Part shown: positions 22,291 through 43,715 of the stretch, one piece after another | How positions within the stretch are numbered: position 1 is the first letter of the stretch | Layout: each line of letters opens with the position of its first letter | NCBI RefSeq assembly: GCF_001953305.1 | Contig: NZ_MTFE01000010.1 | Location: 1,816,317 to 1,862,704 of the forward strand | Reading direction: 5' to 3' | DNA length: 46,388 nucleotides | DNA from: Cnuella takakiae | GTDB lineage: Bacteria > Bacteroidota > Bacteroidia > Chitinophagales > Chitinophagaceae | Notes under the pieces: generated by a model | What the model was told of the DNA's origin: nothing | Seen by the model: only the letters and a program-made list of their open reading frames with translations | Databases searched by the model: none | Translations under genes and position numbers: made by a program

Positions 22291-23184
22291 ATGAACAAAG
22301 CATTCCTTGCCTTCCTCTGCCTGTTGTTTGCTGCTGCGCCAACTTTTGCACAATCCAACCGGGTGATTTCTTTTTTTCCAAAAGGTACCGTGCTGCATGC
22401 CAACCTTCCGTACCACAACGATACCCTGCAAAAACACCTGCTGGATATTTACCTGCCGCCTAATGCCAGTGGAAAGCTGCCCCTGGTAATATGGGTGCAC
22501 GGCGGTGGCTGGTTGAGCAATGATAAGTATGCCGATATGGGGTACATGCAAAAAACCATTGCAGCCATCATCAACAGTGGTTATGCCCTGGCATCCATTG
22601 ATTACCGCTTCAGTACCCAGGCCAGATTCCCGGCGCAGATACAGGATTGCAACGCAGCCCTTGCCTACCTGTTCAACAATGCGGGCAGGTACCAGCTGGA
22701 TACGAGCCGCTTTGCCCTGATGGGGTTTTCGGCAGGCGGCCACCTGGCTTCTTTGCTTGGTTTGTCGCACAACAACCGGGTGCCGGCTTTTTACACTTCC
22801 GGTGCCCGGCGCATGCCTGCTATCAAGGCTGTTGTTGATTTTTACGGTCCTGCCGACCTGGTGCTCTTTCCCGGGAGCGACAGCCCCCAATCGCCCGAAG
22901 GCCTGCTGCTGGGTGCCGCCCCGCTTGCCCGCCCCGACCTGGCAAAAGCGGCCAGCCCGATCAGCTATGTGGATAAGAACGACCCGCCATTCCTGATCAT
23001 CCATGGGGAGCGCGACGATATGGTTGCGCCCAAGCAATCGCAGCTGCTGCGTTCCTGGCTGCAGGTGAGCGGTGTTCCCAGCGAGTTGATCATTGTAAAG
23101 GACGCACCCCACTTCGGTGTTCAGTTTGATGTGGAGGAAGTGCGCGGCAAGGTGATGCAATTCCTCCAGCAGCATCTGAAGTAG
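22291..23184 (+). CDS. Secreted alpha/beta hydrolase, esterase/lipase (BD-FAE-like)
   Basis: The 297-residue protein has a signal peptide (MNKAFLAFLCLLFAAAPTFAQ) and an alpha/beta-hydrolase core. The oxyanion-hole motif is HGGGW at 70-74, the nucleophile elbow is GFSAGG with S147, the acid is D242 in HGERDDMVAP and the base is H274 in DAPHFG. This resembles carboxylesterases and bifunctional feruloyl/acetyl-xylan esterases. The protein probably works in the periplasm or is secreted, removing acyl groups from a sugar or small ester. It stands alone between two gaps of more than 200 bp, upstream of an AraC regulator read in the same direction. Substrate unknown. Confidence 0.88.
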   Translation: MNKAFLAFLCLLFAAAPTFAQSNRVISFFPKGTVLHANLPYHNDTLQKHLLDIYLPPNASGKLPLVIWVHGGGWLSNDKYADMGYMQKTIAAIINSGYALASIDYRFSTQARFPAQIQDCNAALAYLFNNAGRYQLDTSRFALMGFSAGGHLASLLGLSHNNRVPAFYTSGARRMPAIKAVVDFYGPADLVLFPGSDSPQSPEGLLLGAAPLARPDLAKAASPISYVDKNDPPFLIIHGERDDMVAPKQSQLLRSWLQVSGVPSELIIVKDAPHFGVQFDVEEVRGKVMQFLQQHLK

Positions 23185-23409: not shown

Positions 23410-24288
23410 ATGGGAATTATCCAGCAGCGGCCTGTTTCGGCATTCAATAGTGAGCTTAAATTGAAAGGCTTCAACGTGTTTGCTATTGAAAGCGATAGCG
23501 GTGCTACCCGCATGTACAGCCGGAAGGACTTTTACAAGATCTGTTTGACCACAGGCAAGAGCAGGATCCATTATGCCGACCGGAGTTTTGATGCCGAAGG
23601 CACGGTTTTGTTTTTTGGCAATCCCCATATTCCCTATTCCTGGGAAACGCTTTCCACCACCTATGTGGGCTACACCTGCCTGTTTTCTGAAGATTTTATC
23701 CAGCAGTCGGAACGTTCGCAGACCCTGCTGCAATCGCCCTTCTTTAAATTGGGTGGTACCCCCATCCTCAACATCACGGAGGCGCAGCGCACTTTCCTGA
23801 ATGCCATTTTTCAAAAGATGATGGAAGAGCAGCAAACCGATTACCCGTATAAGGATGACCTGATCCGCAACTATGTGCACCTGATCATTCATGAGGCCCT
23901 GAAGCTGCAACCTTCCGAACAGTTTACCCGCCACAAAAACGCGGCTTCCCGCATCACTTCCGTGTTTTTGGAACTGCTGGAGCGGCAGTTTCCCATCGAA
24001 ACCAGTGAACGGCCCCTGCAGTTTAAAACCGCGCAGGACTATGCCCGTGCCCTTTCCGTGCATGTCAATTACCTCAACCGTGCGGTACGGGAGGTAACCG
24101 GCAAGTCAACCACCGCCCATATCAGCCACCGGGTGGTAACTGAAGCCCGGGCCCTGCTGCAGCATACCGACTGGAACATTGCGGATATTGCCTATGCCCT
24201 GGGGTTTGCCTATCCCAGTTATTTCAACAATTATTTCAAAAGAGCAACCGGCATCAATCCAACCGCTTTCCGGCTGGCACAGGTTTGA
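23410..24288 (+). CDS. AraC-family transcriptional regulator
   Basis: The 292-residue protein has an N-terminal ligand-sensing half with a cupin-like strand pattern (about 20-160) and a C-terminal double helix-turn-helix (about 195-290). The second helix-turn-helix contains NIADIAYALGFAYPSYFNNYFKRATG, the classic AraC signature, followed by NPTAFR. Such proteins activate nearby genes on ligand binding, and the run of small enzymes that starts 85 bp downstream is the obvious target set. A TAGGTTTG at 23372-23379 could be its -7 element, but the matching -33 sequence is poor. The effector is unknown. Confidence 0.92.
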   Translation: MGIIQQRPVSAFNSELKLKGFNVFAIESDSGATRMYSRKDFYKICLTTGKSRIHYADRSFDAEGTVLFFGNPHIPYSWETLSTTYVGYTCLFSEDFIQQSERSQTLLQSPFFKLGGTPILNITEAQRTFLNAIFQKMMEEQQTDYPYKDDLIRNYVHLIIHEALKLQPSEQFTRHKNAASRITSVFLELLERQFPIETSERPLQFKTAQDYARALSVHVNYLNRAVREVTGKSTTAHISHRVVTEARALLQHTDWNIADIAYALGFAYPSYFNNYFKRATGINPTAFRLAQV

Positions 24289-24373: not shown

Positions 24374-24973
24374 ATGAACGACCCCATCCAGGAACAGCAG
24401 CGCAAAGACGGTCGTGGCAATCTATTTGAACGTATGCGCCAGGGCGGAATGCTCCCTGCCAACGACCCCCAACTGCCCAAAATGTGGGCTTATGTGGCCC
24501 GTGCCATTCGGCTATCTGCTGCACTCAATACGGCAACCACCATTGAGGACATCCGCAACAAACTGGGTGAGATCATCGGCACGGCGGTGGATCCTACCAC
24601 TACGGTGTTCGTACCTTTTCATACCAATTTCGGCCGCCATATTCAGCTCGGAAAACAGGTATTCATCAACCATGGCTGCAGTTTCCTCGACCTGGGCGGC
24701 ATTATCATCGAAGACGATGTAATGATCGGGCCTGGGGTGCGCCTTATTTCCGAAAACCACCCGCTTGACCCCACCCAACGAAAATCGTTATTGCTGCAAA
24801 AAGTAGTGGTAAAACGCAATGCCTGGATCGGTGCGGGTGCTACCATCCTGCCCGGGGTAACCATTGGGGAAAACGCGGTAGTGGCTGCAGGCGCTGTTGT
24901 GTCCAAAGATGTGCCGGCCAATACGGTGGTAGGTGGTGTGCCGGCCAAAGTGCTGAAAACCCTCAGCTCTTGA
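24374..24973 (+). CDS. Maltose/galactoside O-acetyltransferase-type LbH protein
   Basis: The 199-residue protein has an N-terminal helical segment (about 1-70) and then hexapeptide repeats that form a left-handed beta-helix: FGRHIQLGKQVFINHGCSF, IIIEDDVMIGPGVRL, AWIGAGATILPGVTIGENAVV and the end VPANTVVGGVPAKVLK. The catalytic histidine of this family is expected in the SENHPLD segment. The enzyme uses acetyl-CoA to acetylate a sugar or similar hydroxyl in the cytoplasm, as a trimer. The gene starts 85 bp after the AraC gene and probably leads its target operon. The acceptor is unknown. Confidence 0.9.
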   Translation: MNDPIQEQQRKDGRGNLFERMRQGGMLPANDPQLPKMWAYVARAIRLSAALNTATTIEDIRNKLGEIIGTAVDPTTTVFVPFHTNFGRHIQLGKQVFINHGCSFLDLGGIIIEDDVMIGPGVRLISENHPLDPTQRKSLLLQKVVVKRNAWIGAGATILPGVTIGENAVVAAGAVVSKDVPANTVVGGVPAKVLKTLSS

Positions 24974-25038: not shown

Positions 25039-25530
25039 ATGCGCATCAATAAAATATGCTTCCCGGCTTTTTTGGCCTTTGCGATGTCCCATGGTTTGCA
25101 GAGCCACGGACAGGCTGCTGGAAAAACCAAGGACACACTGCAAACCATTTTTCCGAAAGGACAGTTGGGGCCGGCAGAAAATTTTACCGGCAAGGCCTGG
25201 GCACTAAGCCTGGTAGCCGATGACACCACCTACAACACCCTTGTTGGCAATGTCTATTTCGAACCCGGCGCACGAAGCAATTGGCATATTCACCCATCCG
25301 GTCAAATGCTGATCATTACCGAAGGGGTGGGCTATCACCAGATAAAAGGACAGCCCAGGCAAACGATCCGGAAAGGGGATGTGGTGCAATGCCCTCCCAA
25401 TGTGATGCATTGGCATGGTGCCAGCCCGGATACCGCCATGCACCAGCTATACATCTTGCCCAAAACAGAAAGGGGGATTGTGACCTGGTTGCAGAAAGTG
25501 ACGGATGAAGAGTACAACAACGGTAAATAA
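25039..25530 (+). CDS. Exported cupin of the hydroxynitrile-lyase-like family
   Basis: I use ATG 25039 (163 residues), which begins a signal peptide (MRINKICFPAFLAFAMSHGL); upstream starts at 24970 (TTG) and 24985 (ATG) only add a poorly hydrophobic extension. The cupin core has WHIHPSGQ (H83, H85, Q89) and NVMHWHG (H124), a 3-His/1-Gln metal site, and ends WLQKVTDEEY, the same ending as the cytoplasmic cupin at 28023. In the remembered Granulicella hydroxynitrile lyase the same ligands bind manganese. Here the position of its active-site Gln110 is isoleucine and Ala40 is glycine, so lyase activity is less certain. It follows the acetyltransferase closely. Confidence 0.82.
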   Translation: MRINKICFPAFLAFAMSHGLQSHGQAAGKTKDTLQTIFPKGQLGPAENFTGKAWALSLVADDTTYNTLVGNVYFEPGARSNWHIHPSGQMLIITEGVGYHQIKGQPRQTIRKGDVVQCPPNVMHWHGASPDTAMHQLYILPKTERGIVTWLQKVTDEEYNNGK

Positions 25531-25577: not shown

Positions 25578-27064
<1,487 letters not shown>

Positions 27065-27246: not shown

Positions 27247-27981
27247 ATGGCAAGAATTTTCATCACCGGGTCTGCAGATGGACTGGGCGCATTAGCAGCG
27301 AAAGCTTTGATAGAACAGGGACATGAGGTGGTATTGCATGCCCGGAATGCGGAGCGGGGACGGGATGCCATGGCAAGGAACCCGGGTGCCGCAGCTGTTG
27401 TTACCGGCGACCTGACCGACACGGCGGCAACCATAGCCCTTGCATCCGAAGTAAACAAGCAGGGTGCATTTGATGTCGTTATTCATAATGCCGGTGTGTA
27501 CCAGGTATCCGCAAAGGAAATATTCGCCGTCAATACCCTGGCGCCATATATCCTTACCTGCCTGGTACAAAAACCAAAGCGGCTGATCTACCTGAGTTCG
27601 GGTATGCATATGCAGGGAAGTGCGAAACTCAACCTGTTTGCAACCGATGTAAACCGCATTACCTATTCAGATTCCAAACTGCATGTGCTGATGCTGTGCA
27701 AGGCCGTAGCCCGCAAATGGCCCGATGTGTATGCCAATGCACTGGACCCGGGTTGGGTGCCTACAAAGATGGGCGGCCGCGGCGCTCCCGACGACCTGCA
27801 AAAAGGATACGAAACACAGGTGTGGCTGGCAACAAGCGGGGATGCTGCGGCGCAGGTAAGCGGCCGGTATTTTTTTCACCAAAAGGAAAGACCATACAAC
27901 CGCGAAGCGGATGATGTATTGCTGCAGGATCAGTTGCTGCAACAGTGCGCAGCGCTTACGGGTGTTTCCTTCCCGCAGTAA
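27247..27981 (+). CDS. SDR-family oxidoreductase (second copy in the cluster)
   Basis: The start is ATG 27247, preceded by a good purine run (AGGAGTGAAGGAA); GTG 27238 would add three residues. The 244-residue protein has TGSADGLG (about 7-14), HARN, a HNAGVY segment near 80, a serine in YLSSGMHM and the catalytic YSDSK near 140. The later [11 protein letters not shown] with a C-terminal substrate loop is typical of SDRs acting on small carbonyls or alcohols. It differs clearly from the SDR at 25578, so it is not a recent duplicate. It ends about 40 bp before the cupin start and is probably cotranscribed with it. Substrate unknown. Confidence 0.9.
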
Positions 27982-28022: not shown

Positions 28023-28418
28023 ATGGAAATAACAAGAATCGGATCGCAGCCATCAGCAAAAGGACCGGGAGACTGGTTTACCGGGGCCGTAAGGATTGAC
28101 CCTTTGTTTGCAGCCAATGATGCAAGGAGGGGTGCTGCTGCCAGTGTCACTTTCGAGCCGGGTGCCAGGACCGCCTGGCATACGCATCCGCTTGGACAAA
28201 CCCTGGTTGTAACGGCTGGTTGCGGTTGGGTGCAAAAAGACGGCGGGCCCGTGGAAGAGATCCATCCTGGTGATGTCGTTTGGTTTGCCCCTAATGAAAA
28301 GCACTGGCATGGCGCCACGGCAACCACCGGTATGACCCATATTGCCATACAGGAAAACCTGGACGGGAAAGTGGTAGACTGGATGGAACAGGTTACGGAT
28401 GAACAATACCAACCGTGA
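28023..28418 (+). CDS. Cupin-type hydroxynitrile lyase homologue (cytoplasmic)
   Basis: I choose ATG 28023 (131 residues); an open stretch upstream overlaps the SDR gene and is not domain sequence. From memory this matches the Granulicella cupin (R)-hydroxynitrile lyase in length and at every key position: metal ligands H53, H55, Q59 and H94, active-site A40, V42, H106 and Q110, the start MEITRIGSQ and the end [12 protein letters not shown]. Those enzymes use manganese to split mandelonitrile-type cyanohydrins into aldehyde and cyanide, or run the reverse. Many relatives have no tested activity, so the substrate is inferred. No signal peptide. It lies 42 bp after an SDR and 184 bp before an aldehyde oxidoreductase operon. 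Confidence 0.85.
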
Positions 28419-28602
28419 ATTTGCAGTTGAGGCAATGTTCTTTCTAAACAAAAGGCCAAATTCAAAAGGGTAGTAGCTGTCGCATTTTTGCCTTTATACT
28501 TTTTCCTTTTGCCTTAACAGGGCATGATTATTTATCCTGTTTCCTCTTTCCGCATGCTTCGCTGCTCACCCTTTCCTTCTGTTTGACTGCTAATAAATTT
28601 TT

Positions 28603-29241
28603 ATGGCTAAAGACAACGAAATCAACGGACAACCTGAACATAGCCCCGACCAGGGGCGCAGGAGTTTCCTCAAAAACTCTTCCCTTTTATCGGCATTGGC
28701 CCTGGCGCCCCCCTATATCGTAAAAGCTGCAGGGGCGGAGTGGGACGAAAAAGCTGCCCGGTTCTTCGAACGGGTGCCGCTGAGCATAGAGGTAAATGGC
28801 CGAAGCCGCACCCTGTCCATCGAGCCCCGCACCACCCTGCTCGACCTGCTTCGTGAACAGCTGGCACTCACCGGCACCAAGAAAGGCTGCGACCATGGCC
28901 AGTGCGGCGCCTGCACGGTGCACGTGGATGGCAAAAGGGTATTGTCCTGCCTGTCGCTGGCGGTGATGCAGGAAGGCAAAAAAGTAACCACCATCGAAGG
29001 GCTTGCCGAAGGCGAAAAGCTGCACCCCCTGCAGGAAGCCTTTATCAAACACGATGGGTTCCAATGCGGCTATTGCACGCCGGGACAGATTATGTCGGGT
29101 GTGGCCTGTATCCGCGAAGGGCATGCCGGCTCCGACGACGAGGTGCGTGAGTACATGAGTGGGAATATCTGCCGCTGCGGTGCCTATCCCAACATTGTAA
29201 AAGCCATCCGAGATGTACAAAAAGGAGGGCAAAAAGTATGA
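28603..29241 (+). CDS. paoA: PaoA-type 2Fe-2S subunit of aldehyde oxidoreductase, Tat-exported
   Basis: The 212-residue protein carries a twin-arginine signal (GRRSFLKN, residues 18-25, with ALALAPPYIVKAAGA after it). Two 2Fe-2S domains follow: a ferredoxin-type cluster with C96, C101, C104 and C116, and a helical cluster with C155, C158, C190 and C192. The order matches the small subunit of the periplasmic xanthine-oxidase-family aldehyde oxidoreductase PaoABC (YagTSR) of E. coli. It passes electrons from the molybdenum site to the FAD subunit. Its stop overlaps the start of the FAD-subunit gene by four bases. Folded export through Tat would carry the other subunits along. Confidence 0.9.
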   Translation: MAKDNEINGQPEHSPDQGRRSFLKNSSLLSALALAPPYIVKAAGAEWDEKAARFFERVPLSIEVNGRSRTLSIEPRTTLLDLLREQLALTGTKKGCDHGQCGACTVHVDGKRVLSCLSLAVMQEGKKVTTIEGLAEGEKLHPLQEAFIKHDGFQCGYCTPGQIMSGVACIREGHAGSDDEVREYMSGNICRCGAYPNIVKAIRDVQKGGQKV

Positions 29242-30221
29242 TCAACTTTGACTACATCCGGGTGTCCACGCCCACAGCAGCCGTGGATGCGCTGGCAAAA
29301 GATAAAGCTGCCCAGTGGATTGCGGGGGGCACCAACCTCATCGACCTGATGAAGAAGGGCGTGCTGAACCCCCAAAAGCTGGTGGACATCAATAACCTGC
29401 CCCTAAAAGAGATCAGGAAGGAAGGCAAGGTGCTGCGCATCGGTGCACTGGCCCTGAACAGTGATGTTTCGGAACATGAACTGGTACTACAATCACAGCC
29501 GCTGTTGGCGCAGGCACTTAAGGCGGGCGCCTCCCAACAAATCCGCAACATGGCTACCGTGGGCGGCAATATGATGCAGCGCACCCGCTGTCCTTATTTC
29601 TACAACCCCGATATGCCCTGCAACAAGCGGGAGCCCGGAACCGGCTGTGGCGCGCTGAAGGGCTTCAACCGGATGCATGCCATTTTTGGTACTTCCGATA
29701 AATGCATCGCGGTACATCCCAGCGATATGTGTATTGCCCTCGTGGCCCTGGACGCTACCGTGCTGGTTGCCGGTCCCAAGGGCGAGCGGCGCATTCCTTT
29801 CCAAAATTTCCACCGCCTGCCCGGCGAGCTGCCCCAGCGGGACAATACGCTGGAAAGAGGCGAGCTGATCCTGGGTTTGGAAATCCCCGACAACCCATTT
29901 GCCGACCATGTGCATTACCTGAAAGTGCGCGATCGTAGCTCTTACGCCTTTGCGCTGGTATCGGTTGCCGCGGCCCTTGCCCTGAAGGGCAAAACCATCC
30001 AGGATGTGCGGCTGGGTATGGGCGGCGTTGCCCACAAGCCCTGGCGATTGGTGGAAGCCGAAAGTTTCCTGAAAGGAAAGCAGGCTACAGAAGCCGTATT
30101 CCGGGAAGCGGCAAACCTCGCCATGCGGGGTGCAAAAGGGTATGGACAAAACAATTTTAAACTGAAGCTGGGGCCCAACACCATCGTGGAAGCACTGAAA
30201 AAGGCCACCGAAAAAGCATAA
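29238..30221 (+). CDS. paoB: PaoB-type FAD-binding subunit with extra Fe-S insertion
   Basis: The 327-residue protein has the FAD-binding signature of the xanthine dehydrogenase medium subunit: IAGGTNLIDLMK near 28-39 and IRNMATVGGNMM near 102-113. Just after it is a cysteine-rich stretch with C118, C128, C137, C156 and C165, as in PaoB, which carries an additional 4Fe-4S cluster in this place. The C-terminal domain includes GVAHKPWRL. The subunit receives electrons from the iron-sulphur subunit and hands them to an acceptor. It has no signal of its own and overlaps paoA by four bases, so piggyback export is likely. The next gene starts 4 bp downstream. Confidence 0.9.
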   Translation: MINFDYIRVSTPTAAVDALAKDKAAQWIAGGTNLIDLMKKGVLNPQKLVDINNLPLKEIRKEGKVLRIGALALNSDVSEHELVLQSQPLLAQALKAGASQQIRNMATVGGNMMQRTRCPYFYNPDMPCNKREPGTGCGALKGFNRMHAIFGTSDKCIAVHPSDMCIALVALDATVLVAGPKGERRIPFQNFHRLPGELPQRDNTLERGELILGLEIPDNPFADHVHYLKVRDRSSYAFALVSVAAALALKGKTIQDVRLGMGGVAHKPWRLVEAESFLKGKQATEAVFREAANLAMRGAKGYGQNNFKLKLGPNTIVEALKKATEKA

Positions 30222-30225
30222 GCAT

Positions 30226-32469
30226 ATGGACAAGGAATTCTTTTTCGACAAACAGGCAAAAGACCCCATCGAGCGGGTAGGGGGCAGGGCCAAGGTTACC
30301 GGTGCTGCGCTGTACACCGCCGACCAGCAGTTCCAGAACCTGGCTTATGGCTTCCTGGTGGGCAGCACGGTGGCCAAGGGGCGCATCAAAAGCATCGACA
30401 CCAAGGCTGCCGAAAGAGCACCGGGTGTGCTGGCTGTAATCACCCACCAGAATGCGCCCAAGATACCGGGTTACCAAACCGGGAGGGATCCTGCAAAGCC
30501 GCCTACCGCCGGCCAGCCCCTGCGTATCTTTTACAACGAAGAGATATTTTACTACGACCAGCCCATTGCCCTGGTTATTGCCGATACCTACGAACGGGTG
30601 CTGCATGCCGCCAAACTGGTAAAAGCGCAATACGAAAAAGGCGTTTTCCAGACAGAGTTGGGAAGCAATTTGGCCAAGGCCAAAATTCCGACCGGTCCCC
30701 GTTTTGAAGACTATAAACGCGGTGAGGTAGATGGCTATAAAAATGCCCCGGTTAAAGTGGAACAGGAGTATTACCACCCCATTGAAGTACACAACCCCAT
30801 GGAGCTGGGTAATACCCTGGCACATTGGGAAAGTGATCAAAAGTTGATGGTATATACCAAAACCCAGGGCGTGGAAGCCACCCGCAAGTCGATCAGCGAT
30901 GCCTTCAAGCTACCGCCGGAAAACATCACCGTACATGCCGAGCAGATTGGCGGCGCCTTTGGTATGGGCCTGCGTACCTGGCCTTATGAAATTGCAGCCG
31001 TGATGGGTGCTCAAAAAGTGGGCAGGCCTTTAAAACTGGTACTGCACCGCGAGCAGATGTTTACCAATGTGGGCTACCGCCCGGCAACACAACAGAAGAT
31101 CGGCATTGGCGCCACGCCGGATGGCAAGCTGGTGGGCATCACCCATGAGGCTTATGCCAACACCTCTTCCTACGAAGAGTTTACGGAGGCTACGGTCAAT
31201 CTCACCCAGTTTCTTTATGCCTGTCCCAATGTAACCACGCGTTACCGGCTGGTGCCGCTCAACATGTGTACCCCTATCTGGATGCGCGGCCCCGGCGAGG
31301 CCACGGGCAGCTTTGCCCTGGAATCCGCCATGGACGAACTGGCCTTTGCCCTCAACCTGGACCCCATTGAGTTGCGCAACCGCAACCATGCCGATGTGGA
31401 CCCCGAAAAGAACCAGCCCTGGTCGAGTAAGTACCTGACGGAATGTTTCCAGATGGGGGCCGAAAAGATTGGCTGGAAAAACCGCAAGCTGCAGCCCCGA
31501 ACTGCACAGGAGGGCGACTGGCTGGTAGGTTATGGTATGGGCACGGGTGCTTTTGGTGCCATGCGTTGGGCAGCTACGGTTAAGGCAAGGTTGCAACCCG
31601 ATGGCAGCCTGCTGCTGCAATGTTCGGTAAACGATATGGGCCCGGGTACAGCTACCATGATGACCGCCGTGGCAACAGAAGCCATGGGCCTGACACCTGC
31701 AAAAGTGCGGATCCAGATGGGCAGCACCGGTCTGCCTCCCGGCCCAACCCAGGGTGGGTCCAATGTGACGGCAACCGTTGGTGCGGCGGTTAATGATGTG
31801 TGTACTGCCTTAAAAGAACAGATCGCAACCCTGCTCAGCAAGGAAGGTTCGCGTTTTCATACCGCTAATGTGCATGGTGTGAAAGTGGACGACCTGCTAT
31901 TTGCCGAAGGCGCCGTATCACTGAAGCAGAACCCCGCCATCAAAATGACCTATACTGAGCTACTGCAACAAAACGGTCTGTCTGTACTGGAGCAAACCAG
32001 GGAGTCGAAAGGACAGCAACAGCAATACTCGATGTATTCTTTCTCGGTACACTTTGTAAAACTGCGGGTACACAAACCCACCGGCAGGATCAAAATTGAC
32101 CATGTGGTATCCTGTGCCGATGCGGGTACCATTGTGAGTCCCACAACCGCCGCCAGCCAGATGATCGGCGGTGCGGTGGGCGGCATCGGTATGGCCATGA
32201 TGGAGGATCTGGTGATTGACCACCGCTTTGGCCGGCCGATCAACAACAACCTCGCGGATTACCATGTGCCGGTGAATGCCGATATCCCGAATGTGGATGT
32301 AGTTTTTGTGGGCAAGAAGGATCCGTACATCAACCAGATGGGTTCAAAAGGCCTGGGTGAAATCGCCCTCATCGGGATGGCGCCCGCTATTGCCAATGCA
32401 GTATTCAATGCAACGGGCAAGCGCATACGAACGCTGCCCATTACACCAGATAAACTAATGGAAGGGTAA
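30226..32469 (+). CDS. paoC: PaoC-type molybdopterin catalytic subunit
   Basis: The 747-residue large subunit has the N-terminal alpha/beta hammerhead (DPIERVGGRAKVTGAALYTADQQ), the cofactor-binding domain with IGGAFGMGLRTWPYE and IWMRGPGEATGSFALESAMDELA (an active-site arginine as in PaoC), and near the end GSKGLGEIALIG, where E712 is the catalytic base of the xanthine oxidase family. Known PaoABC oxidises a broad range of aldehydes, notably aromatic ones, in the periplasm, with molybdopterin cytosine dinucleotide as cofactor. No XdhC/PaoD-type chaperone gene is in the window. A terminator-like hairpin follows at 32588. Confidence 0.92.
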   Translation: MDKEFFFDKQAKDPIERVGGRAKVTGAALYTADQQFQNLAYGFLVGSTVAKGRIKSIDTKAAERAPGVLAVITHQNAPKIPGYQTGRDPAKPPTAGQPLRIFYNEEIFYYDQPIALVIADTYERVLHAAKLVKAQYEKGVFQTELGSNLAKAKIPTGPRFEDYKRGEVDGYKNAPVKVEQEYYHPIEVHNPMELGNTLAHWESDQKLMVYTKTQGVEATRKSISDAFKLPPENITVHAEQIGGAFGMGLRTWPYEIAAVMGAQKVGRPLKLVLHREQMFTNVGYRPATQQKIGIGATPDGKLVGITHEAYANTSSYEEFTEATVNLTQFLYACPNVTTRYRLVPLNMCTPIWMRGPGEATGSFALESAMDELAFALNLDPIELRNRNHADVDPEKNQPWSSKYLTECFQMGAEKIGWKNRKLQPRTAQEGDWLVGYGMGTGAFGAMRWAATVKARLQPDGSLLLQCSVNDMGPGTATMMTAVATEAMGLTPAKVRIQMGSTGLPPGPTQGGSNVTATVGAAVNDVCTALKEQIATLLSKEGSRFHTANVHGVKVDDLLFAEGAVSLKQNPAIKMTYTELLQQNGLSVLEQTRESKGQQQQYSMYSFSVHFVKLRVHKPTGRIKIDHVVSCADAGTIVSPTTAASQMIGGAVGGIGMAMMEDLVIDHRFGRPINNNLADYHVPVNADIPNVDVVFVGKKDPYINQMGSKGLGEIALIGMAPAIANAVFNATGKRIRTLPITPDKLMEG

Positions 32470-38990: not shown

Positions 38991-39276
38991 ATAGTCAATG
39001 TATTTTTTGCCTGTTTGAAACTTGTTGTTTTTCTTTTGAATTGTATTAGGATTGGAAGCAGTATTGGTATTGTTTGATTTCTATACATCTTGATTTGAAA
39101 TCCATAACCCGCAACCCGGGAAAACAGGTTAATTTCCCGCTGGTAAAAAATGCAGGATACCAGTAGGCTTCGGACTTCGCCTTTCGTATTTTGAAAAGCG
39201 TTTTGTGCTAACAGGAATTGTGACCGCGACCGGTATTGTATTCAAACATCTTATTGCTTGCATAAATCAAAGCATT
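38991..39276. other. Intergenic region upstream of iorA
   Basis: Between the kinase terminator and the iorA start nothing coding is supported. It should contain the promoter of the iorAB genes, but I find no exact TTTG / TAnnTTTG pair; GTATTTTG near 39187 is only a near match. Confidence 0.4.
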
Positions 39277-39750
39277 ATGGCAGTTATCCAGTTCACCCTT
39301 AACGGCAAGGCGCAATCCATAGATGTGGATCCCGAGATGCCCTTGCTTTGGGCAATCCGCAACACGGTAGGCCTTAAGGGCACCAAGTACGGCTGTGGCA
39401 TGGCTATGTGCGGTGCCTGCACCGTGCACTTCAACGGGCAGCCTACGCGTTCCTGTTCGCTTCCCATGAGTGCGGTGGCGGGCAGCAGCATCACCACCAT
39501 CGAAGGCATATCGGAAGATACCACCCACGCGGTGCAGCGTGCCTGGATCGAAGAGCAGGTAGCCCAGTGCGGCTATTGCCAGAGCGGGCAGATCATGTCG
39601 GCGGTGGCCCTGCTCAAAAACAATCCTAATCCTTCCGATGCCGATATCGATGCTGCCATGGCGGGCAATATCTGCCGGTGCGGTACCTATCCCCGCATCC
39701 GCAGTGCCATCAAGAAAGCCGCGCAACTGACGGCGTCGGCAGCGAAGTAG
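39277..39750 (+). CDS. iorA: IorA-type 2Fe-2S subunit of a molybdenum hydroxylase
   Basis: I start at ATG 39277 (157 residues), which opens the ferredoxin fold; the frame is open 24 codons further upstream without domain sequence. The first cluster uses C40, C45, C48 and C60, the second C98, C101, C133 and C135. Length and motif order ([42 protein letters not shown]) match the alpha subunit of isoquinoline 1-oxidoreductase. Unlike PaoA it has no Tat signal. It carries electrons from the molybdenum subunit encoded 120 bp downstream. No FAD subunit is present, as is usual for IorAB. The actual substrate may be another N-heterocycle or an aldehyde. Confidence 0.9.
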
Positions 39751-39754
39751 GTTT

Positions 39755-39830
39755 TAAGCTACAAGCTGTTAGCTGCAAGCCACAAGCCGGCAGCCAACTA
39801 CTTGCAGCTTGAAGCTCACTGCTTGCAGCT
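39755..39830. repeat. Palindromic AAGCT/TGCAAGC repeat between iorA and iorB
   Basis: The gap is filled with variants of AGCTGCAAGC in both orientations. AGCTGCAAGC (39771-39780) pairs perfectly with GCTTGCAGCT (39821-39830), and CTTGCAGCT at 39801-39809 offers a competing partner. This is the form of short dispersed REP-like elements; whether it is multicopy cannot be seen here. Confidence 0.7.
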
Positions 39831-39870
39831 TTCCCTCCACCCCCTTTCCTCACCAACGACATTATTCCAT

Positions 39871-42021
39871 ATGGAATCCTCCGTTTCAAGAAGAAAATTC
39901 CTCCGCCTTTCCAGCCTGGCCGGTGCCGGACTGGCTTTGGGCTTTTATTTTCCCGCCGCCGCAAAAGCAGCCACCATCATCAATGGTACCGATGCGGCAG
40001 CCCTGGGTGTTGAGCTCAACTCCTGGATCTTTATCGACCCTTCGGGAAAGGTAACGCTGATGTGCCACCGTGCCGAGATGGGCCAGGGTGTGTACCAGTC
40101 GCTGGCGCAGATCATTGCCGAGGAACTGGAAGTAAACCTCGACGAGGTGAACATCCAATTTGCCAAAGGCGACAAAAAATATGGCAACCAGGTTACGGGT
40201 GGCAGTTCCACCGTAAGTGGCTCGTACAAGAACCTGCTGAAGCTGGGTGCCACGGCCCGCGAAATGCTGATCGCCGCTGCCGCAGCTAAGTGGAGCGTAC
40301 CTGCCTCCGAGTGCTACGCTGAAGGCGGAAAGGTGATTCATAAGCCTACCGGCAACAAATACCACTACGGCGAGCTGGCTGAAGCCGCTTCCAAGCTGGA
40401 GGCTCCCAAAGAAGTTAAACTCAAGCCTGTTTCCGAATACAAACTGGTGCGCAAACCCCTGCCACGCCAGGACCTCAAAATGAAGACCAACGGCACCGCC
40501 GTGTTCGGGCTCGACTTCGAAGTGCCCGGCATGCTGTACGCACAAGTGGAACGCAGTCCGCGCTGGCATGGCGTGGTGAAGAGCTTCAACGAGGCCGAAG
40601 TGCTGCAGGTACCGGGTGTGAAAAAAGTGGTGAAAGTAAAAATGAGCGTACACGATAAGTACCGCGAAGGGCTGGCCGTAGTGGCCGACAACCTATGGAG
40701 TGCCATGAAGGGCCGCAAGGCCTTGAAGGTGGTTTGGGACGATAGCGGTTTTGAACACGTAAACTCTGCCGACATCCTTAAGCGCCAGGAGGAAGCCCTG
40801 AAAACAAAGCAGGGTATTTCCGCCAAAAAGCAGGGCGACCCTGATGCCGTGCTGGCAAAGGCCACAAAAAAGCTCGACCTCATTTACCAAACCCCCTACC
40901 AGGCACATGCCGCCATGGAGCCGCTCAACTGCGTGGCCCACTACCATGGTGACAAGATCGAAATCTGGGGTCCCATACAGGCCCCCGACTGGGTTCAGGA
41001 CCATATCAGCAAGCAGATGAACGTGCCCCGCGAAAAGGTAATCGTGAACATGACCTTCCTGGGTGGTGGCTTTGGCCGCAAGGCCTTTACCGACTACCCG
41101 CATGAAGCGGTACTGATTTCAAAAGAAATTGGCGCCCCGGTGCAGGTAGTGTGGAGCCGCGAGGATGATATGACGCAGGGACCTTTCCGGCCCGGTGTGT
41201 CGTACCGCTGCGAGGCGGCCCTTACCAACGGCGCCATCGATGCGGTACGCATTAAGATGGCGGGGCAGGACCTATCCAACTGGATGCGCCCAGATAAGAA
41301 AAGCGCCAACTGGGGTACCACTGAGGGATTTGCCGATCCTTATTTCAAGACCATCCAAAATATTTCCTTTACCGATATCCCGTTTGAAACACCGATTCCT
41401 CCCTTGTGGTGGCGGTCGGTATATGCTTCCACCAATGGTTTTGCCTATGAAAGCTTTATGGACGAACTGGCGCTGGCCGCCGGTAAGGACCCCATGGCTT
41501 TCCGCAGGCAATACTTGGATGATGAGCGGATGCACAAACTGATTGATAAGCTGGTGGAAGTATCGGGTTGGAACACCCGGAAGAAGAAAGGCGGTTATGG
41601 TGTGGCCATCGTTGAAAGCTTTGGCAGCACGGTGGGACAGGTGGTGAAAGTATCGAAACCCGCCGGTGGCAAACTGAAGGTGGACAAGGTTTGGGCCGTG
41701 ATCGACTGCGGCTGGTACGTGAACCCCGATACCATCCGGGCACAGGTGGAAGGCGCCATTGTAATGGCCCTGGGTGCCGCCACGCAGCACGCCATGACCT
41801 TTAAAGATGGCAAGGCCGAATTGACCAATTTTCATAACTACCCGGTTACCCGCATCAGCGAAACCCCGCCTATTGAAGTGCATATCATGGACAATGATGC
41901 CAATGCAGGTGGGGTGGGCGAGCCCGGTTTGCCGCCATTGGCGCCGGCACTGGCTAATGCGATCTTTGATTTGACGGGAAAACGAATCCGTAAACTACCA
42001 ATCAATCTGGCAACCGTGTAA
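39871..42021 (+). CDS. iorB: IorB-type molybdopterin subunit, Tat-exported
   Basis: I start at ATG 39871 (716 residues), giving a twin-arginine signal SRRKFLRLSS (6-15) followed by AGAGLALGFYFPAAAKA; upstream frame falls in the repeat. Motifs of the xanthine oxidase large subunit are present: WIFIDPSGKVTLMCHRAEMGQGV, TFLGGGFGRKA and near the end GVGEPGLPPLAPALANAIFDLTGKR with E684 as catalytic base. IorB enzymes use the cytosine dinucleotide form of the cofactor and hydroxylate N-heterocycles or oxidise aldehydes; exported relatives often act on aldehydes. The MocA-like gene 105 bp downstream could supply the cofactor. The iorA partner lacks a signal and would travel with this subunit. Confidence 0.9.
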   Translation: MESSVSRRKFLRLSSLAGAGLALGFYFPAAAKAATIINGTDAAALGVELNSWIFIDPSGKVTLMCHRAEMGQGVYQSLAQIIAEELEVNLDEVNIQFAKGDKKYGNQVTGGSSTVSGSYKNLLKLGATAREMLIAAAAAKWSVPASECYAEGGKVIHKPTGNKYHYGELAEAASKLEAPKEVKLKPVSEYKLVRKPLPRQDLKMKTNGTAVFGLDFEVPGMLYAQVERSPRWHGVVKSFNEAEVLQVPGVKKVVKVKMSVHDKYREGLAVVADNLWSAMKGRKALKVVWDDSGFEHVNSADILKRQEEALKTKQGISAKKQGDPDAVLAKATKKLDLIYQTPYQAHAAMEPLNCVAHYHGDKIEIWGPIQAPDWVQDHISKQMNVPREKVIVNMTFLGGGFGRKAFTDYPHEAVLISKEIGAPVQVVWSREDDMTQGPFRPGVSYRCEAALTNGAIDAVRIKMAGQDLSNWMRPDKKSANWGTTEGFADPYFKTIQNISFTDIPFETPIPPLWWRSVYASTNGFAYESFMDELALAAGKDPMAFRRQYLDDERMHKLIDKLVEVSGWNTRKKKGGYGVAIVESFGSTVGQVVKVSKPAGGKLKVDKVWAVIDCGWYVNPDTIRAQVEGAIVMALGAATQHAMTFKDGKAELTNFHNYPVTRISETPPIEVHIMDNDANAGGVGEPGLPPLAPALANAIFDLTGKRIRKLPINLATV

Positions 42022-42025
42022 ATGG

Positions 42026-42109
42026 GAACCACGGAGGCAGTTACGACACGAAGGAACACAATAGCATTATTCTTTGTGTAACTCCGTGTGCTCCCTGTCT
42101 CTGTGGTTC
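42026..42109. repeat. 84-bp imperfect inverted repeat between iorB and mocA
   Basis: GAACCAC (42026-42032) matches GTGGTTC (42103-42109), and ACACAA (42056-42061) matches TTGTGT (42074-42079), with partly matching sequence between. The wording (ACCACGGAGG ... TTTGTGTAACTCCGTG ... CTGTGGTTC) is like the dispersed intergenic repeats I remember from many bacterial genomes. It could fold into a long hairpin in the transcript. Confidence 0.7.
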
Positions 42110-42126
42110 AAATTATTTCCATACAA

Positions 42127-42738
42127 ATGAATACGTCCCAAAACATCGGAGTGATGCTGCTGGCTGCGGGGAGTTCTTCCCGCCTGGGCAGGCCCAAGCA
42201 GTTGCTGGCCTACGAGGGACAATCGCTATTGCAGCACAGCCTGCAGGTAGCGCTGGAAGCCGGTACCGGGCCGGTAGTGGTGGTGCTGGGCGCAAAAGCC
42301 GATGAAGTAGGAGCGGACCTGTCCGGTGAAGGGGTGCATACCGTCTTCAACCCGGAATGGCAGGAAGGCATGGCCGCTTCCATCCGTTGCGGGGTGCGGC
42401 ACCTGCAACAGGTAGCCCCCAGCGTAGAAGCCCTGATCCTGATGGTATGCGACCAGCCCTTTGTTTCACCCCAAATACTACAAAGTCTGGTTAAGGCCCA
42501 CCAGGATACCGGTAAACCCATTGTTACCTGCACATATGCCGGTACCTTTGGTCCACCCACCCTGTTTCGCAAATCCCTTTTCCCCCAATTGTTGCAGCTA
42601 ACCGGTGATGTAGGGGCAAGGAGCATTTTGAAACAATATGCCAACGAGGTGGAGGCCCTTCCTTTCCCCGAAGGAAAGCTGGACATAGATACCGAAAACG
42701 ATTACCAACAAATGCTTTCCGGCAACCGAACCGCATGA
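42127..42738 (+). CDS. mocA: MocA-like molybdenum cofactor nucleotidyltransferase
   Basis: I start at ATG 42127 (203 residues), which leads straight into GVMLLAAGSSSRLGRPKQLL, the NTP-binding LAAGxSxRxGxxK signature. VVVVLGAKADEV, NPEWQEGMAASIRCGV and LILMVCDQPFVSPQIL follow, as in MocA-type CTP:molybdopterin cytidylyltransferases. This enzyme makes the cytosine dinucleotide cofactor needed by PaoABC- and IorAB-type hydroxylases, which fits its place directly after iorB. Its last four bases overlap the moaA start (ATGA), so the two are translationally coupled. A different nucleotidyltransferase specificity cannot be fully excluded from sequence. Confidence 0.87.
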   Translation: MNTSQNIGVMLLAAGSSSRLGRPKQLLAYEGQSLLQHSLQVALEAGTGPVVVVLGAKADEVGADLSGEGVHTVFNPEWQEGMAASIRCGVRHLQQVAPSVEALILMVCDQPFVSPQILQSLVKAHQDTGKPIVTCTYAGTFGPPTLFRKSLFPQLLQLTGDVGARSILKQYANEVEALPFPEGKLDIDTENDYQQMLSGNRTA

Positions 42739-43715
42739 TCCTTGACTCCCATAACCGCATACACAATTACCTGCGCATTTCCCTCACGGACAATTGCAAC
42801 CTGCGCTGCTTTTACTGTATGCCCGAGGAGGAATACGATTTTACACCGGCTTCGCGGCTGATGCAAAAGGCGGAGATCGATGCGCTGGCCCGTACCTTTG
42901 TGGCGCAGGGCGTAAAAAAGATCCGGCTTACTGGCGGCGAGCCCCTGGTGCGCAAAGACGCTGCCGATATCATCCTGTCCCTTTCCCGGCTACCTGTAGA
43001 ACTGACCCTCACGACCAACGGCACCCGCGTACATTCCTTTATGGATGTTTTCCGAGATGCGGGCATCCGTTCGCTCAATATCAGTTTGGATACATTACAA
43101 TCCGACAAGTTCCTTTTGGTTACCCGCCGCGACCAGTTTAGCCTGGTGAAAAACAATATCCGGCTCCTGCTGGATAAGGGCTTTCATGTAAAAGTGAACG
43201 TGGTGGTGATGCAGGGACTGAACGATACCGAGATCCTGGACTTTATTGCCTGGACAAAGGATACGCCGGTACATGTACGCTTTATCGAGTTCATGCCCTT
43301 CAGTGGCAACCGCTGGACCAGCAACAAGGTGGTGACCCTGCAACAGATCCTCGATACCATTGCACAGCGTTACGACTTCCTGCCGCTCAAAGGCGATGTC
43401 CACGATACGGCCAAAAAATTCATCGTGCCCGGTCATGCCGGCACCTTCGCGGTGATCAGTACCATGACCGCTCACTTCTGCGGCGATTGCAACCGCATGC
43501 GGCTTACCGCGGATGGCAAGCTGAAGAACTGCCTCTTCTCCCAGTCCGAAACCGACCTGCTCACGCCCTTGCGGAACGGCGAAGACGTGTTACCGCTTAT
43601 TCATCAAAGTATTCTTTCCAAAGCAAAACAACTGGGCGGACAGCTGCCGGCTGACTTCCAGAACCTCCAAGCCGAAGCCCTGCTAAACCGCAGTATGATC
43701 ACCATCGGTGGCTAA
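42735..43715 (+). CDS. moaA: GTP 3',8-cyclase MoaA (radical SAM)
   Basis: The 326-residue enzyme has the radical SAM cluster CNLRCFYC (C21, C25, C28), GGEPLVRKD at 67-75, and the C-terminal second cluster with C249, C252 and C266 (FCGDCNRMRLTADGKLKNC). It ends in the Gly-Gly tail that enters the active site of MoaA. Length and both clusters are complete, so it should be active. It performs the first step of molybdenum cofactor synthesis, turning GTP into 3',8-cyclo-dihydro-GTP in the cytoplasm. The mocA overlap and nearby hydroxylase genes place it in a molybdenum enzyme locus. MoaC, MoaD, MoaE and MoeA genes are not in the window. Confidence 0.95.
   Translation: MILDSHNRIHNYLRISLTDNCNLRCFYCMPEEEYDFTPASRLMQKAEIDALARTFVAQGVKKIRLTGGEPLVRKDAADIILSLSRLPVELTLTTNGTRVHSFMDVFRDAGIRSLNISLDTLQSDKFLLVTRRDQFSLVKNNIRLLLDKGFHVKVNVVVMQGLNDTEILDFIAWTKDTPVHVRFIEFMPFSGNRWTSNKVVTLQQILDTIAQRYDFLPLKGDVHDTAKKFIVPGHAGTFAVISTMTAHFCGDCNRMRLTADGKLKNCLFSQSETDLLTPLRNGEDVLPLIHQSILSKAKQLGGQLPADFQNLQAEALLNRSMITIGG

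Follow-up and report, generated by a model that had tools for sequence, protein, structure and literature searches.

We describe a gene cassette of the bacterium Cnuella takakiae in which a cupin of the hydroxynitrile lyase type is followed, on the same strand, by a complete paoABC-type aldehyde oxidoreductase operon. The cassette lies within a stretch of 46,388 nucleotides of contig NZ_MTFE01000010.1 (positions 1,816,317 to 1,862,704), analysed as a whole and referred to here as the window (Table 1). The pairing recurs in other genomes and, in three sampled clades, is more frequent than uniform placement of the genes would predict. We put at about one in two the probability that the locus is an inducible cassette for reactive aldehydes or other carbonyl compounds, in which the cupin would act as an adduct lyase and PaoABC would provide one aldehyde sink.

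A hydroxynitrile lyase-type cupin precedes a complete paoABC-type operon

The sequence of the 131-residue cupin places it in the Granulicella-type hydroxynitrile lyase family. Its best matches among PDB chains are 4bif (E 6.3e-70), 8oz8 (E 8e-69) and 4uxa (E 6.8e-68), to which 130 residues align with zero gaps, and its score of 204.3 bits against the NCBIfam model MandnitrLy (NF049940, (R)-mandelonitrile lyase) passes the equivalog cut-off of 140. Nine positions are as in 4bif, namely A40, V42, H53, H55, Q59, H94, H96, H106 and Q110; the initial annotation had listed all of these except H96, and each of its eight is borne out by the gap-free alignment. We take H53, H55, Q59 and H94 to be metal ligands and A40, V42, H106 and Q110 to be active-site residues, and 4bif, listed in the PDB under the title cupin 2 conserved barrel domain protein, to be the (R)-hydroxynitrile lyase of Granulicella tundricola (GtHNL). 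The window cupin differs from GtHNL in its paoABC genomic context and in that its lyase role is a prediction. The 4uxa chain departs from 4bif at exactly three positions, 40, 42 and 110, which are those changed in the variant A40H/V42T/Q110H named in part of PMC8097096. Thermotoga maritima TM1010 (PDB 2f4p, function unknown) is also a relative of the window cupin (E 1.5e-25), but a far more remote one than 4bif.

The next open reading frame on the strand is paoA, which starts at 28603, 184 bp beyond the cupin stop. All three genes, paoA, paoB and paoC, are full-length and closely packed, forming a three-gene iron-sulfur/FAD/molybdenum operon whose extent (28603-32469) and completeness are exactly as the initial annotation had described them, with PDB matches to PaoB and PaoC in support. 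Scores against the NCBIfam models PaoA (E 2.3e-75, 252.8 bits) and PaoC (586.5 bits) fall under the respective equivalog cut-offs of 322 and 1180, and we therefore name the operon PaoABC-type and do not call it an ortholog. Alignment of the window PaoB with 5g5g_B reveals the common stretches RTRCPYFY, PCNKR and G-GC; the Cys-rich stretch of PaoB is presumably a 4Fe-4S site. The operon resembles that of Escherichia coli PaoABC (PDB 5g5g, 5g5h) in subunit order, in the PaoB-type Cys stretch and in the twin-arginine translocation (Tat) motif of the small subunit (RRSFLK), and differs from it in the sub-threshold scores of PaoA and PaoC and, as far as the scanned proteins show, in the lack of an adjacent PaoD/XdhC gene. 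Passages of PMC4273604 describe the E. coli enzyme as leaving the cytoplasm as a whole complex by means of the Tat signal of PaoA.

Table 1. Genes of the cassette and related features of the window, with the evidence for each assignment.
Feature	Coordinates	Strand	Evidence or remark
AraC-family regulator	23410..24288	+	Pfam HTH_18
Hexapeptide-repeat acyltransferase	24374..24973	+	Pfam Hexapep; relatives in same neighbourhood in L159-L163, L165
Second cupin, same family, signal-peptide-like start	25039..25530	+	NCBIfam MandnitrLy 141.3 bits (cut-off 140)
Short-chain dehydrogenase/reductase (SDR) 1	25578..26324	+	Pfam adh_short E 8e-64
Aldo/keto reductase remnant, about 57 of about 331 codons	26324..26497	+	tblastn, best E 4.5e-25
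Cyclophilin-like (PF18050) putative lipoprotein	26591..27064	+	Pfam Cyclophil_like2 E 6.7e-32
SDR2, stop 41 bp ahead of cupin	27247..27981	+	Pfam adh_short
Cupin, Granulicella-type hydroxynitrile lyase (predicted), 131 aa	28023..28418	+	PDB, NCBIfam, residue check
paoA-like 2x[2Fe-2S] subunit	28603..29241	+	NCBIfam PaoA; Pfam Fer2, Fer2_2; twin-arginine motif
paoB-like FAD subunit, PaoB-type Cys-rich stretch	29238..30221	+	PDB 5g5g_B E 1.5e-81
paoC-like molybdenum subunit	30226..32469	+	PDB 5y6q_C E 1.8e-139, 5g5h_C E 2.7e-126
Second, Ior-type molybdenum hydroxylase (small subunit 39205-39750, large 39802-42021)	39205..42021	+	NCBIfam, Pfam
MocA-like	42088..42738	+	NCBIfam, Pfam
MoaA	42735..43715	+	NCBIfam, Pfam

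The pairing is enriched in three clades

The initial annotation had proposed that the two genes be counted as neighbours against a random baseline, and the outcome is positive in all three clades sampled: with index genomes left out and kinship uncorrected, at least 14 close pairs were observed against 0.85 expected at 6.2 kb. In the family of a Bradyrhizobium metagenome-assembled genome (locus L124), 198 genomes hold the cupin in at least 136 cases, PaoB in 88 and both in at least 68, and at least 7 of the latter have the two genes on one strand and no more than 3.2 kb apart; without the index genome the figure is at least 6 of at least 67, against 0.24 expected (P 2e-7). The Roseomonas family (200 genomes; cupin in 76, PaoB in 76, both in 42) yielded 3 pairs within 3.4 kb against 0.20 expected (P 1e-3), one of which (G729) has a LysR gene between the two and does not form one operon. 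For the order of Pontibacter (341 genomes; cupin in 30, PaoB in at least 102, both in at least 18) at least 6 pairs fall within 6.2 kb, or at least 5 of at least 17 without the index genome, against 0.12 expected (P 2e-7); cupin and PaoB are on opposite strands in one of these pairs (G1037).

Expected counts assume uniform placement of genes, with Poisson P values, and still take in both index genomes, namely that of L124 (= G368) and G1059, which presumably bears the Adhaeribacter swui plasmid described below. Two of the clades were picked because each was already known to contain an adjacent case (L124 and the Adhaeribacter plasmid), the distance limits of 3.5 kb for the alphaproteobacterial families and 6.2 kb for the Pontibacter order were fixed after the data had been seen, gene positions were compared by eye, and in some genomes (e.g. 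G790 and G905) the PaoB position falls outside the matches listed. As a control, the same null at 10-70 kb, contig ends ignored, fitted the counts roughly, with 3 pairs seen against 3.5 expected in the family of L124, and 1 against 2.9 in the Roseomonas family.

Gene order and plasmid-borne cassettes

The order of the pair varies among loci. The operon paoABC precedes the cupin in seven (L130, L131, L133, L134, L135, L136 and L154) and follows it in three (L132, L150 and L151), whilst in L159-L161 it lies inside a cassette that runs second cupin, cyclophilin-like gene, paoABC, Zn-alcohol dehydrogenase, acyltransferase and cupin, of which L162 and L163 carry rearranged forms. Since L159-L165 were chosen for a nearby PaoB, they illustrate the arrangement and add nothing to the counts; L159-L161 may represent a single event. 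In a cupin tree of 105 rows, the 10 pao-adjacent rows need nine label changes, a rough figure given that the tree is poorly resolved, 66 of its 102 inner branches being open.

The closest counterpart of the window cassette resides on a plasmid of Adhaeribacter swui (NZ_CP055155.1), in the order acyltransferase, alpha/beta hydrolase, second cupin, cyclophilin-like gene, SDR, NAD(P)H-binding protein, cupin, DUF1593 and paoABC, with identities to the window of 88% for the cupin, 75% for PaoA, 80% for PaoB and 79% for PaoC. Both clusters possess a regulator, acyltransferase, second cupin, cyclophilin-like gene, SDR and cupin, and then paoABC; the plasmid cluster differs in its location, in its additional alpha/beta hydrolase and DUF1593 genes, and in its helix-turn-helix regulator, which is divergent and weakly similar to that of the window. 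An IS982 transposase gene (L156 14534-15433) adjoins the molybdenum subunit gene on this plasmid, which is consistent with a mobile cassette. Other plasmids carry variants: paoABC and then the cupin in Bradyrhizobium barranii, a second cupin immediately after paoC in Methylobacterium nodulans, and a cupin divergent from paoABC, with a LysR gene between, in Agrobacterium fabrum.

Carbonyl reductases are the commonest neighbours of the cupin

Of 90 loci, 28 have an aldo/keto reductase within 3 kb of the cupin, 19 a Zn-alcohol dehydrogenase and 16 an SDR; of 21 Bacteroidota loci, 13 have an AraC regulator and 12 a Zn-alcohol dehydrogenase within 7 kb. Carbonyl reductases are hence the commonest neighbours of the cupin and paoABC is a minority partner. 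A locus from the genus of the window organism (L031) carries the module of the window but lacks paoABC. In the window, the SDR2-cupin pair is collinear with that of Pontibacter anaerobius (72% nucleotide identity over 1184 bp), and a short segment that follows the end of SDR1 and precedes the cyclophilin-like gene is, judged by its residual coding sequence, a decayed aldo/keto reductase of the cassette: aldo/keto reductases of other cupin loci account for 24 of its 25 best tblastn rows, at 70-79% identity over 57-64 residues.

The wider set of neighbours admits another interpretation, in which the cupin has no lyase function in vivo and instead performs some other metal-dependent role (for instance as an isomerase, a dioxygenase-like enzyme or a sensor of carbonyls) within a general island for electrophile or quinone stress, lyase activity being a side reaction. 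Its neighbours elsewhere include ABM-monooxygenase-like, carboxymuconolactone-decarboxylase-like, tautomerase, cyclophilin-like and DUF2255 proteins and major facilitator superfamily (MFS) transporters, where ABM and some other names are our own reading of the sequences. The second cupin of the window reads G V H H Q H H Q L across these nine residues, with H106 and Q110 replaced by Q and L, and the nitroaldol reaction of relatives, described in part of PMC8097096, points to a loose specificity. On the other hand, all nine positions are retained in 93 of 120 cupin rows (at least 60% identity, many phyla; two loci counted twice, L124 = L136 and L156 = L165), and this retention suggests a defined reaction. 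We regard a non-lyase role as a tentative possibility.

A proposed inducible cassette for aldehydes and other carbonyl compounds

The reading that we prefer remains that of a carbonyl-responsive cassette, in which the AraC regulator probably controls the genes, which would then be co-regulated. The cupin would be a metal-dependent lyase that splits an aldehyde from an adduct; in vitro, its relatives act on cyanohydrins and form nitroalcohols, the nitroaldol reaction being among those that passages of PMC8097096 attribute to them. The aldehyde, whether freed by the cupin or incoming, might pass to an SDR, an aldo/keto reductase or a Zn-alcohol dehydrogenase and be reduced in the cell, or alternatively undergo periplasmic oxidation to the acid by Tat-exported PaoABC. 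In the genome of the window an aldo/keto reductase has decayed and paoABC stands at the 3' end of the cassette. The data show family membership by sequence, gene order, and the recurrence and enrichment of the pair, whereas co-regulation, the substrate and any passage of aldehyde between the enzymes are inferences. Predicted signal peptides also speak for this reading: found in 14 of 107 cupin rows overall (13 of 106 without one duplicate), they occur in 6 of 13 cupins in an operon with a molybdenum hydroxylase against 7 of 93 others, and in 4 of 9 alphaproteobacterial rows beside paoABC itself against 9 of 97, both comparisons being post hoc. The cupins that we counted as being in one operon, for these counts and for the cupin tree, were chosen by us, with L122, L145, L146 and L152 left out.

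Several observations weigh against this reading, beginning with the close relatives. Among 58 related genomes a close cupin (76-100% identity) is present in 10 and a close PaoB (61-100%) in 13, or 18 and 20 respectively when all matches at E 0.001 are taken. Both close genes occur in four of the 58 and are adjacent only in the genome of the window; in the other three they are separated by 99 kb (G003), by 431 kb (G009) or by location on different contigs (G032). No cupin of the family was found within the fetched stretch of any of 11 pao loci of relatives (11 fetched from 13 rows at 61% identity or more). The cupin is present in 18 of 298 genomes of the window's order, and of 24 cupin-bearing genomes of this order, pooled from the relatives and the order search, 17 have a molybdenum-hydroxylase large subunit, which lies within 10 kb of the cupin in two: the genome of the window and G149, where it is of a different type and on the opposite strand. 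Sampling across phyla gave a similar picture, since among 80 cupin loci (the best 80 of 592, of which 52 have 5 kb on each side) paoABC is near the cupin in one, L124, and other molybdenum hydroxylases in three (L056, L067 and L122), a number not clearly above chance, molybdenum hydroxylases being present in 45 of 46 such genomes. The P values given above overstate the strength of the enrichment, the genomes being kin and the distance limits having been set afterwards. Scans of the 184-bp gap between cupin and paoA for promoters, terminators and RNA folds gave no clear signal either way. The strongly supported branches of the cupin tree are compatible with a single origin.

The compartments and active sites of the paired enzymes belong to the same adverse group. 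By a home-made rule, which is not SignalP and underlies all the signal-peptide calls given here, the window cupin shows no signal peptide; with a Tat motif on PaoA, cupin and PaoABC are therefore expected in different compartments. Residue 110 is A or G in 6 of 11 pao-adjacent alphaproteobacterial cupins (L131-L134, L150 and L155), and other than Q in 16 of all 120 cupin rows; L153, in which the cupin is divergent from paoABC across a LysR gene and keeps Q110, was left out of this count. The chemistry of those six cupins may thus differ, and their sequences hint at a substrate-shifted subgroup. The pao-associated cupins of Bacteroidota (the window, L159-L163 and L165) keep Q110.

Could the cupin cassette and paoABC simply be separate transcription units that happen to adjoin? 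The 184-bp gap would fit such chance neighbours, as would the separation of the genes in three of four relatives with both and the 11 relatives' pao loci without the cupin. Chance adjacency was our first working answer, drawn from the relatives and the 80 loci, and it was dropped after the clade-wide counts and the Adhaeribacter plasmid. We now consider it very improbable, with the pair enriched across clades, nearly the same set of genes ending in paoABC on the plasmid of Adhaeribacter swui, and the operon placed within the cassette in L159-L163.

The initial annotation went further, proposing a dedicated route from cyanohydrin to acid, in which the cupin would cleave natural aromatic cyanohydrins to aldehyde and HCN and PaoABC would oxidise the aldehyde. 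Every active-site residue that it named is as in GtHNL, the adjoining PaoABC-type oxidase forms a recurrent pair with the cupin, and four pao-adjacent cupins (L130, L133, L134 and L136) have predicted signal peptides. Benzaldehyde is a substrate of PaoABC, as stated in part of PMC4287710. What stands of this proposal is the enriched pair and, in general form, a context of aldehydes and carbonyl compounds; its cyanohydrin-specific part fares less well. The pair is uncommon (1 of 80 sampled cupin loci, 1 of 4 genomes with both genes among the 58 relatives), the typical partners of the cupin reduce carbonyls, and the lack of a signal peptide on the window cupin is at odds with the Tat motif of PaoA. 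A Pfam scan of 30 window proteins, the rest of the genome lying outside the search, revealed neither a nitrilase, nitrile hydratase, rhodanese or cyanase nor any other family that handles nitriles or cyanide, and the incomplete gene tables of six annotated plasmid regions likewise list none. Wild-type GtHNL, moreover, has low activity. We consider a dedicated cyanohydrin route improbable.

It is tempting to speculate that cupin hydroxynitrile lyases and PaoABC or related molybdenum hydroxylases constitute a repeatedly assembled, often plasmid-borne adduct-to-acid module with a physiological role. In the periplasm, an exported lyase would split cyanohydrins or other adducts and PaoABC would oxidise the aldehyde so released, with cytosolic reductases as an alternative branch. 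Such a module we hold to be doubtful.

Cupin hydroxynitrile lyases serve in biocatalysis; to our knowledge, no natural role has been established for them. The titles and abstract openings of the open-access literature yielded no description of the cupin-paoABC pairing. A recurrent partnership of cupin, aldehyde oxidase and carbonyl reductase, on chromosomes and plasmids and in more than one phylum, offers concrete candidate substrates, namely aldehydes and their adducts, together with strains in which they can be tested.

Other features of the window and its genome

Downstream of paoABC, a chromate transporter gene lies on the opposite strand. The second molybdenum hydroxylase, with the MocA-like and MoaA genes after it (39205-43715), begins about 7 kb downstream of paoC and is possibly related to the cassette. 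This hydroxylase, the second cupin and the aldo/keto reductase remnant are additions to the initial annotation. A third cupin of the same family in the genome of the window (L146, G000:C1:17001-36000) is clustered with an Ior-type molybdenum hydroxylase and aldo/keto reductases. Directly upstream of the AraC regulator lies a gene for a BD-FAE family esterase (22291-23184), which might conceivably be linked to a release of substrates of aromatic type.

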